Shown here: positions 5,811 to 7,300 of the stretch, piece by piece
Layout: each line of letters begins with the position of its first letter
Numbering within the stretch: the stretch's first letter is position 1
Assembly: GCF_000981585.1 (NCBI RefSeq)
Contig: NZ_LN831776.1
Span: forward strand, 3,145,187-3,209,186
Direction: 5' to 3'
Source: Paenibacillus riograndensis SBR5
Lineage (GTDB): Bacteria; Bacillota; Bacilli; Paenibacillales; Paenibacillaceae
DNA length: 64,000 bases
The notes under the pieces: generated by a model
Told to the model about the DNA's origin: nothing
Seen by the model: only the letters and a program-made list of their open reading frames with translations
The model's database searches: none
Program-made: the position numbers and the translations under genes

Positions 5811-5840
5811 TTGACCTTATACAAATCCTTATGATATGGT
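5811..5840 (+). promoter_or_regulatory. Promoter of the attenuated efflux gene
   Basis: TTGACC (5811-5816) and TATGGT (5835-5840) are separated by 18 bases. They sit between the GH32-like gene and the leader peptide at 5878, so transcription would begin near 5847 and produce a leader of about 280 nt before the efflux gene. Confidence 0.55.
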
Positions 5841-5877
5841 AATTAACAATAAGTATCGAAAGGGTGACTCCAAGCCA

Positions 5878-5889
5878 ATGATCTACTAA
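5878..5889 (+). CDS. Leader peptide MIY (three codons)
   Basis: ATG ATC TAC TAA preceded by GAAAGGGTG (5858-5866), a plausible ribosome site about 11 bases upstream. The stop codon and the last sense codon lie inside the first arm of the attenuator hairpin, so a ribosome arrested here would cover that arm. This is the arrangement expected for antibiotic-induced, ribosome-mediated attenuation. Translation is inferred, not shown. Confidence 0.5.
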   Translation: MIY

Positions 5890-6056
5890 TCCTATTCCAC
5901 AAAAGAAAAAATCGTAATCTTACGAATTTTCTGGATAGGATTAGTGCGGGCTTTTAATATTAACGTTAAGATCGCTGTTTCTTTGACGGGAGCAGTGTAT
6001 CTTTTCGTCTGTATGTCTGCCTCCTATCCAGCAACTTCCGGATAAGGAGGTTTTTT
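5885..6056 (+). promoter_or_regulatory. Transcription attenuator (anti-antiterminator / antiterminator)
   Basis: Four complementary segments are readable. Arm 1 ACTAATCCTAT (5885-5895) pairs perfectly with arm 2 ATAGGATTAGT (5935-5945); the hairpin is extended internally by TCGTAA/TTACGA. The part CTGGATAGGA of arm 2 (5931-5940) is an exact 10-base complement of TCCTATCCAG (6022-6031), which is the 5' arm of the downstream terminator. Thus 1:2 pairing frees the terminator, while blocking arm 1 lets arm 2 capture arm 3 and gives readthrough. Arm 1 begins within the MIY leader, linking the switch to ribosome stalling. Confidence 0.75.
6019..6056 (+). terminator. Intrinsic terminator of the attenuator
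   Basis: CCTCCTATCC (6020-6029), loop AGCAACTTCC, GGATAAGGAGG (6040-6050; one bulged base), followed by six T. It lies 70 bases before the efflux gene start and is the off-state structure of the switch. Confidence 0.85.
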
Positions 6057-6127
6057 GTGTGTGCAAATAAAGGAACATCTGTCGAACTCAAAAAAAATTT
6101 ATTTAATCAAAAAGATGGAGGCTCCGT

Positions 6128-7300
6128 ATGTTTACATTAACCAATAATAAAAGAATCCTCGCGATTCTAATGATCAATATATTCATTGTAATGCTGGGCG
6201 TTGGTTTAATTACACCTATCCTGCCAAAACTGATTACCGAATTTGGAGCGGGCGGACAGTCCATTGGTTTTTTAGTGGCAGCCTATGGCCTTACACAATT
6301 CCTGCTGTCTCCAATTACCGGGCAACTGTCGGACCGATACGGGAGGAAAACATTCATCATTACGGGTGTCATCGTCTTTGCTGCAGCAAAATTTATCTTT
6401 GCTATTGGAAATGCGCTATGGATGTTATATACCTCAAGGCTCCTGGAAGGAGTGGCAGCAGCCTTAATTATTCCGACAATGATGGCATGTGTGGCTGATA
6501 TTACAACAACTGAAGAACGCGCCAAAGGAAACAGTCTTCTGGCCGCAGCTATGTCATTCGGATTTTTATTGGGGCCCGGACTTGGAGGTCTTTTTGCAGG
6601 GTTTGGAACAAGAGTGCCGCTCTATGCAGCGGCTGGTGCGGCTGTTATAGCAGTAGTTTTTTCAATATTTTGTTTACCTGAAAGTATATCGAAAGAACAA
6701 ATGAATGCTGCGCGGGCAAAGGTTGCCCCAAAGGAATCAATATTCGAACAGTATGCGAAATCGTTGAGATCAAAGTATGTGATGCTCTTTGCACTTGTTC
6801 TGGTAATGACCTTTGGACTAGCTAACTTTGAAACTGTTTTTGGTTTATATGTAACGAACCGCTTCCAATTCACACCACAAAATATTTCCATTATTCTTAC
6901 CGCAGGTGCTGTTATTGGAGTGGGTATGCAGGCGTTAGTTGTTGCTAAGGTTATTAAGATTTTTGGTGAGCAGAAGGTGATAAAAGGATCACTTCTTATT
7001 ATCTCGTTGGGGTATGCTGTATTGCTGCTGGCAAAAGAGTTCTGGAGTATCTTTTTTATTACTTCTGGTATATTTTTTGCTAATGCAATGCTTCGCCCGG
7101 CGCTTAATACACTCTTATCGAAGCGGGCTGGAACTGAACAAGGTTATGCAGCTGGTATGAATAATGCATATATGAGTGTAGGGAATATCGCCGGTCCAAC
7201 TTTAGCGGGATTTTTATTTGATATAAATATGTTCGCGCCATTCATAGCAGGCTGTTGTATCATATTTATTACTTTTTTAATGACAATAAAATTGAAATAA
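6128..7300 (+). CDS. MFS multidrug efflux transporter (DHA1, NorA/Bmr/Tet-like)
   Basis: A 390-residue, 12-helix major facilitator protein. Motif A GQLSDRYGRK is at residues 65-74 between helices 2 and 3, and the antiporter motif C region reads GFLLGPGLGGLFAG. Length and motifs fit drug:proton antiporters of the NorA/Bmr type, which export drugs from the membrane or cytoplasm. The start follows GATGGAGG at about 6114-6121. The leader before it carries an attenuator with a mini-ORF, the usual arrangement for efflux genes induced by ribosome-targeting antibiotics, so a translation inhibitor is the likely inducer and possibly the substrate. The specific drug cannot be read from the sequence. Confidence 0.85.
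   Translation: MFTLTNNKRILAILMINIFIVMLGVGLITPILPKLITEFGAGGQSIGFLVAAYGLTQFLLSPITGQLSDRYGRKTFIITGVIVFAAAKFIFAIGNALWMLYTSRLLEGVAAALIIPTMMACVADITTTEERAKGNSLLAAAMSFGFLLGPGLGGLFAGFGTRVPLYAAAGAAVIAVVFSIFCLPESISKEQMNAARAKVAPKESIFEQYAKSLRSKYVMLFALVLVMTFGLANFETVFGLYVTNRFQFTPQNISIILTAGAVIGVGMQALVVAKVIKIFGEQKVIKGSLLIISLGYAVLLLAKEFWSIFFITSGIFFANAMLRPALNTLLSKRAGTEQGYAAGMNNAYMSVGNIAGPTLAGFLFDINMFAPFIAGCCIIFITFLMTIKLK

Follow-up and report, generated by a model that had tools for sequence, protein, structure and literature searches.

A three-codon leader before an MFS efflux gene of Paenibacillus riograndensis SBR5 and its relatives: a predicted family of vmlR-type attenuators before diverse resistance genes

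The chromosome of Paenibacillus riograndensis SBR5 carries a gene for an MFS efflux protein behind a leader with a reading frame of only three codons, which raises the question of what so short a frame could sense and whether it belongs to this gene alone. The window, that is, the whole stretch of 64,000 nucleotides that was analyzed (contig NZ_LN831776.1, positions 3,145,187 to 3,209,186), contains all parts of the leader on the forward strand (Table 1). A sequence-only reading had described a promoter, a ribosome site, the frame ATG ATC TAC TAA and a canonical terminator, and all of these were found to be exact to the base. Its two pairings were also exact on re-reading: arm 1 is the perfect complement of 5935-5945 in arm 2, and CTGGATAGGA (5931-5940), ten bases of arm 2, is the perfect complement of 6022-6031 in the 5' arm of the terminator. 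The stop codon (5887-5889) lies within arm 1, as had been claimed. A consensus scan for promoters returned three sites per 500 bases versus 1.7 in shuffled sequences and thus proves little on its own; by eye, TATGGT also occurs upstream of the leaders of several relatives. The three-codon frame is presumably translated, although the gap between the Shine-Dalgarno site and the ATG, which is kept in relatives, is long (10 bases beyond GGTGA) and counts against this.

Table 1. Features of the leader and of the gene behind it (window positions).
Feature	Position	Strand	Description	Basis
Promoter	5811..5840	+	-35 TTGACC (5811-5816), 18-base spacer, extended -10 TG-A-TATGGT (TATGGT at 5835-5840, preceded by TG)	Sequence reading; consensus scan
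Shine-Dalgarno site of the mini-ORF	5858..5867	+	GAAAGGGTGA	Sequence; near invariant in alignment A2 (29 leaders)
Anti-antiterminator lower stem, 5' side	5872..5876	+	AAGCC; partner 5949-5953	Fold; 94.4% of cells paired
Three-codon uORF	5878..5889	+	Met-Ile-Tyr-stop, ATG ATC TAC TAA	Sequence; AUG-X-X-stop in 104/109 leaders
Anti-antiterminator arm 1	5885..5895	+	ACTAATCCTAT; contains the stop codon	Fold; 93.1% of cells paired, no double changes
Arm 2	5931..5945	+	5935-5945 pairs with arm 1 (off); 5931-5940 pairs with 6022-6031 (on)	On-state pairing covaries
Lower stem, 3' side	5949..5953	+	GGCTT	Fold; pair counts
Middle hairpin	5968..6003	+	Occupies the place of vmlR SL-2 (pause hairpin there)	Folded in both predicted states
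Intrinsic terminator	6019..6056	+	5' arm 6022-6031 is the partner of arm 2; T run 6051-6056	Hairpin 6019-6051, -14.5 kcal/mol
Controlled gene	6128..7300	+	390-aa MFS efflux protein	ORF; nearest solved structure NorA

Relatives of the leader were sought by sequence and by structure. A BLAST search with the window DNA detected it in 18 of 100 genus genomes, a figure that counts the genome of the window itself. With a covariance model (R1; 29 leaders, 97 positions; matches taken at E <= 0.01), 57 of the 394 family genomes were positive, representing 13 of 19 genera; a sample of 398 genomes from the class gave 65 positives in 29 of 145 genera. Searches over 40 genomes apply stricter filters, by which weak matches are lost. 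The leader of the window matched R1 over its full length at 108.4 bits, being itself one of the 29 rows of the model. The 132 loci examined were reduced to 109 once near-copies (alignment score above 0.93 of the 230 bases) were removed. Dropped before the counts were L019 (a partial BLAST match with no AUG by pattern), 15 loci among L136-L165 (L139, L149-L158, L161-L164) that duplicated the window or places already found by BLAST, and, from the class search, 12 weak rows (10 places and two opposite-strand shadows).

The frame AUG-X-X-stop was exact in 104 of the 109 non-redundant leaders; this count is partly circular because the model contains the frame stretch, and the clean test is the nine orthologs found by protein, all of which carry it. 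The 104 frames encode 23 tripeptides (MIY 49, MIN 11, MKY 8, MNN 5, plus 19 others), including one from L203 that was counted as three codons, where an in-frame ATG two codons further up would give five. No conserved arrest peptide of the kind seen in macrolide-type peptide-motif leaders was found among them. No positions are more invariant than the start codon and the stop, whose spacing stays fixed amid insertions and deletions on either side (29-leader alignment; 109 leaders). This invariant length, combined with a free sequence, indicates that the place of the frame on the RNA counts for more than the peptide it encodes. Of the five exceptions, L175 has lost the stop and keeps an intact vgb; L179, L238, and L251 precede short or broken genes; and no resistance gene was recognized behind L211. 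Among leaders with assigned genes, the frame was lost in three of 11 with a short gene versus one of 90 judged intact (Fisher P 0.004); these classes were set by length after the fact, the full length was guessed for two of the 11, and L167, counted among the 90, looks interrupted. The conservation of frame and pairings in homologous leaders, on which the sequence-only reading had staked its proposal, was borne out, the pairing of arm 2 with the terminator being kept through changes on both sides. The inference that a leader of this length responds to initiation or the earliest steps, and not to a peptide motif, agrees with the variety of tripeptides and with the available part of the work on vmlR (PMC9226507). 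On the other hand, the three codons that it had called very short are not unusual for a leader of this kind, since the accessible text on vmlR (MIN; PMC9226507) and cplR (MRI; PMC10201436) describes leaders that are equally short.

The fold of 5840-6060 had a z-score of -5.35, and none of 200 shuffled sequences folded equally well. When the window RNA (5847-6056) was folded free, the anti-antiterminator and the terminator had predicted probabilities of 0.96 and 0.98, respectively; when -15 to +16 of the AUG was held open as a ribosome mask, the antiterminator rose to 0.90 and the terminator fell to 0.00. A terminator was present in 104 of the 109 leaders by the criteria of the script. At full equilibrium, the ribosome mask flipped only 39 of the 99 leaders whose free form terminates (for the window's gene group, 8 of 13), and 100 of 104 still terminated under a control mask of like size; most leaders would therefore need a kinetic, co-transcriptional argument. 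Folding of the nascent RNA, for which the 3' arm of the terminator was left off in the 104 leaders that have one, gave a mean antiterminator of 0.19 free, 0.82 with the ribosome, and 0.13 with the control mask. Values of at least 0.4 were reached by 21, 98, and 16 of the 104 leaders, respectively, and a gain of at least 0.3 was seen in 80 of 104 with the ribosome mask and in four with the control mask.

The on-state helix also covaries. The pair adjoining its core was U-A in 34, A-U in 8, C-G in 5, G-C in 5, and G-U or U-G in 13 of 86 leaders, with 21 unpaired. The resulting 65 paired cases compare with a permuted mean of 45.8, and none of 2000 permutations was as high, in a test that is inflated by sequence relatedness and a count that omits the 23 of 109 leaders without a match to the core motif. 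The vmlR-type leaders, which are among those 23, pair in another register (by eye). One pair of the core changed from G-C (68) to A-U in seven leaders, all before ABC-F genes, and to G-U in six, with five mismatches. No double changes were found in the off-state helix among the first 29 leaders; its sequence hardly varies, and covariation thus gives this helix no independent support.

The nearest solved structure to the MFS protein by sequence is NorA (E 2.6e-69), and the NCBIfam model for Tet(A)/Tet(B)/Tet(C) scores it at 178 bits, below the cut-off of 475. The G+C content of the gene is 41% (36% at third positions), and its neighbors have 54% (65%) upstream and 50% (52%) downstream; no match above 52% identity to the protein was found in the other genomes of the genus (100 genomes). 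The low G+C content and the lack of close matches in the genus would fit a unit that was acquired. Relatives of the protein were fetched by protein alone from named genomes, and the best 80 of 209 loci were considered. Within these, the leader lies directly upstream in all nine close orthologs (71-81% identical; eight from Paenibacillus and one from Brevibacillus fluminis), with Met-Ile-Tyr in eight and Met-Ile-Asn in one (L028). At E <= 0.1, no leader was found upstream of the MFS gene in the other 71 loci of the best 80, which are more distant (45-53% identical); in three of them (L044, L054, L063), a match lies downstream of the MFS gene, ahead of a complete or partial ABC-F gene. L057 was flagged by a motif scan and rejected for want of a match there in the search for the leader, and weak matches near distant MFS genes in L034 (other strand, E 0.19) and L037 (E 0.58) were taken as chance. 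In L003, a relative of the window's locus, the leader is intact and the MFS gene is reduced to about its last 80 codons.

The MFS gene of the window has its own Shine-Dalgarno site (6117-6121). In the orthologs L026, L029, and L030, the MFS start codon directly follows the terminator, whose 3' arm AAGGAGG doubles as the Shine-Dalgarno site of the gene, so that transcription and translation would be controlled together; the same arrangement was judged by the place of the frame in L136-L138, L140, and L141. A frame of 27 codons starts from a GTG right after the terminator of the window (6057-6140) and overlaps the MFS start codon; by eye, a similar frame is present in L024 and absent in L023 and L025.

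The leader does sit before an MFS efflux gene, as the first reading had it, but it is not peculiar to that gene, since its relatives precede other gene classes. The genes behind the 109 leaders encode Vat (23), ABC-F (23), a second MFS group (21), the window's MFS group (13), Vgb (10), GNAT (5, in two groups), RibD_C-type (2), DHA2-type MFS (2), Cfr (1), and Tet-type ribosome protection proteins (1), with eight other or unclear; the DHA2-type label of two loci is our presumption, Pfam giving MFS_1. Representatives were scanned, and the others were assigned by similarity to them. Vat(I), a streptogramin A acetyltransferase (447.9 bits), the Cfr representative, and a ribosomal-protection ABC-F exceeded their cut-offs, whereas Vgb, Vga, and the Tet-type protein gave good matches that were below the cut-offs of the named families. 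The product of L248 is VmlR (ExpZ; PDB 6ha8, 950 bits). The GNAT, RibD_C, and MFS classes were assigned by Pfam, and those of L003, L159, L202, L205, and L215 were first set by hand and then confirmed by tblastn. Some leader matches to R1 are weak, with 58 bits (E 8.2e-10) for the single Tet-type locus, 46 and 51 bits for those of RibD_C, and 34 and 37 bits for the second GNAT group. The eight other genes include a short-chain dehydrogenase, a hydrolase, a DinB-type gene, and an AraC-type gene, and their loci may be chance matches, decayed leaders, or true targets.

Genes with no assigned drug behind the leader are candidate resistance genes found by way of the leader. These comprise five GNAT genes (L194, L195, L198, L212, L215), two RibD_C genes (L229, L233), and MFS genes similar to TIGR00900 (L181, L188, and 28 more), with L238 truncated. 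In L007, L010-L012, L018, and L200, a Vgb-like frame lies downstream of Vat, which seems to place resistance to both streptogramin components behind one leader. The Tet-type ribosome-protection gene of L206 follows a leader whose frame reads Met-Arg-Arg, which suggests that drugs outside the PLSA group may be sensed.

Several genomes carry copies before different genes, namely G621 (ABC-F, Vat, RibD_C), G032 and G065 (Vat, Vgb), and G128 (ABC-F, Tet-type). A tree of the sensor halves (103 rows, 126 columns) needs 22 changes of gene class, where the least possible is eight and the shuffled mean 61.8. The sensor presumably had a single origin. Repeated swapping of the leader between genes is suggested by this tree, not demonstrated, because support is low (12 of 100 inner branches starred).

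These results make it very likely that the leader is a ribosome-mediated transcription attenuator of the vmlR kind before the MFS efflux gene, which would sense drugs that arrest ribosomes at the first codons. It has the very short uORF with its own Shine-Dalgarno site and the intrinsic terminator whose 5' arm is the partner in the antiterminator, and the hairpin that holds the frame is predicted to exclude the antiterminator. In the absence of drug, ribosomes would read the three codons and leave at once, arm 1 would pair with arm 2, the terminator would form, and transcription would end near 6056. If formation of the first peptide bonds is blocked by a drug (by analogy a pleuromutilin, a lincosamide, or streptogramin A, and perhaps others), the ribosome would be held on the AUG or on either of the following codons. 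Its footprint would cover arm 1, and the freed arm 2 would capture the 5' arm of the terminator ahead of the synthesis of the 3' arm, so that RNA polymerase would read through into the pump gene. The frame would be so short because the ribosome must cover arm 1 from the start codon itself, and the identity of the peptide would matter little. According to the available excerpt on vmlR, the toeprint of a ribosome whose P site holds the AUG lies 16 bases from the A (PMC9226507). This distance corresponds here to 5893-5894, and the ribosome would thus cover most of arm 1. The PLSA type of the drug, the position of the stall, the readthrough, and the substrate of the pump are inferences; against sensing of the PLSA type stand the Vgb lyase and the Tet-type gene behind relatives, neither of which belongs to PLSA resistance.

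It is unlikely that a particular nascent peptide or the termination step is sensed, with Ile-Tyr-stop arresting the ribosome with a given drug as Arg-Leu-Arg does in macrolide leaders. MIY is the commonest tripeptide, and isoleucine at codon 2 is kept through synonymous change (ATC 53, ATT 20, and ATA 2 times), but the same architecture holds all the other tripeptides, position 2 is also Lys, Asn, Ser, Arg, Asp, Val, or Cys, and the close ortholog L028 departs from MIY. In the part of the vmlR study at hand, mutation of the start codon or of the Shine-Dalgarno site virtually eliminates induction, and induction with the MDN and MDK variants equals or exceeds that with MIN, whereas MRK gives less (PMC9226507). 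A later paper of the same group, as far as its text is accessible, calls the vmlR sequence crucial, and some effect of the peptide is therefore possible (PMC10201436).

Three further explanations were weighed against the early-stall attenuator. Amino-acid attenuators typically combine a leader frame, alternative hairpins, and a terminator. The layout here is shared with them; however, a classical attenuator that senses a shortage of charged tRNA-Ile or tRNA-Tyr is hardly credible, given a single codon for each amino acid, a peptide that varies over the family, and genes behind it that are mostly for drug resistance, none of those scanned being biosynthetic for Ile or Tyr. A ligand-binding riboswitch or a protein-controlled antiterminator, to which the three codons would be incidental, could draw on the blocks that are conserved beyond the frame in the 29-leader alignment (GAAAGGGTGA, AGCC, and GTGCGGGCTTTT). 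These blocks are accounted for as the Shine-Dalgarno site and stem partners, and both the invariance of start and stop at fixed spacing amid indels and the commoner loss of either with short or broken genes (in the classes made after the fact) speak for the frame, which leaves this reading very improbable. There is also little chance, somewhat less again than for a riboswitch, that a short terminated transcript is made constitutively and without regulation, as an "sRNA" of the type under which Rfam files the vmlR-type relatives (RF02452); the antiterminator helix is conserved with covariation, and the tie to resistance genes is fixed.

The early-stall attenuator in the window is intact and stands before a gene class (MFS) for which no report was found. 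It is probable, from the comparison of loci and the folding models, that one homologous tripeptide attenuator has come to stand before genes from at least eight unrelated families of proteins across Bacilli, namely Vat, Vgb, ABC-F, Cfr, Tet-type ribosome protection, MFS (three groups), GNAT, and RibD_C-type. It would form a resistance regulon without a regulator protein, in which each gene carries its own sensor of stalls in early elongation. The breadth of gene classes behind one homologous sensor appears to be the new part, three-codon leaders being already known. The available portions of the open-licence literature yielded no description of such a leader before vat, vgb, cfr, or MFS genes, which does not establish its absence from print. 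If this is true, the best-studied example, vmlR, would be a single branch of a broad RNA family through which enzymes, target-protection factors, rRNA methylation, and pumps all come under drug-inducible control, and that would explain a shared induction spectrum of unrelated resistance genes. The leader could then serve as bait, since the gene behind it would probably answer a ribosome-targeting drug, and MFS, GNAT, and RibD_C-type genes with no assigned drug would gain a first testable function.

An Rfam scan of the whole window gave no match at gathering thresholds. Relaxed scanning returned RF02452 (ncr1575) at 37.1 bits (E 0.00044), below the gathering score of 60, RF01481 (rli53) at 23.1 bits, below that of 70, and, as a third and weaker match, a plasmid antisense RNA on the other strand (E 0.37). 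RF02452 exceeds its gathering score in three of 20 loci scanned (L237, L244, L248), all with ABC-F genes, which R1, built without them, found at 34-42 bits. Its consensus reads AUG AUU AAC UAA, and the entry "Bacillus sRNA ncr1575" appears to be the vmlR attenuator filed as an sRNA, which the present reading, if true, would correct.

In Bacillus subtilis, according to the part of the vmlR paper that is available, the uORF Met-Ile-Asn lies within the first hairpin of the leader, and the inducers are lincomycin, iboxamycin, and retapamulin, with erythromycin and linezolid much less active (PMC9226507). As far as that text describes it, the vmlR leader shares with the window a Shine-Dalgarno site, a three-codon frame in the first hairpin, a middle hairpin, a terminator, and an antiterminator that carries the middle hairpin at its apex, with sequence similarity by way of RF02452. 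On the other hand, the window has an MFS pump instead of an ABC-F gene, the tripeptide MIY, and an on-state helix in a different register (by eye); SL-4 hides the Shine-Dalgarno site of the main gene in vmlR, whereas 6052-6145 of the window is without such a hairpin (z 0.03 versus shuffles). Lincomycin-induced antitermination is described for Listeria rli53 (lmo0919/vgaL) in the accessible part of PMC11550727, and by our own reading the Rfam consensus has a three-codon frame, AUG AAA UUC UAA; in contrast to the window, the gene is an ABC-F, and the match reaches only a third or so of the gathering score. Very short frames before PLSA resistance genes are also given, in the available excerpt, for Clostridioides cplR (MRI), vmlR2 (MK[L/Q]), and lsaA (MAGN), but these genes are ABC-F and the likeness considered here is one of layout; in cplR, as in the orthologs L026, L029, and L030, the terminator also hides the Shine-Dalgarno site of the gene (PMC10201436). 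The rli80/hflXr leader, as described in the part consulted, likewise attenuates transcription of a resistance gene through the ribosome, with a frame of 14 aa and an RLR motif (PMC6310831), in contrast to three codons with no fixed peptide here. The bmrCD leader, which the available vmlR text mentions (PMC9226507), is placed here beside rli80 among leaders with longer frames or peptide motifs; it too is a ribosome-mediated transcription attenuator of a resistance gene.
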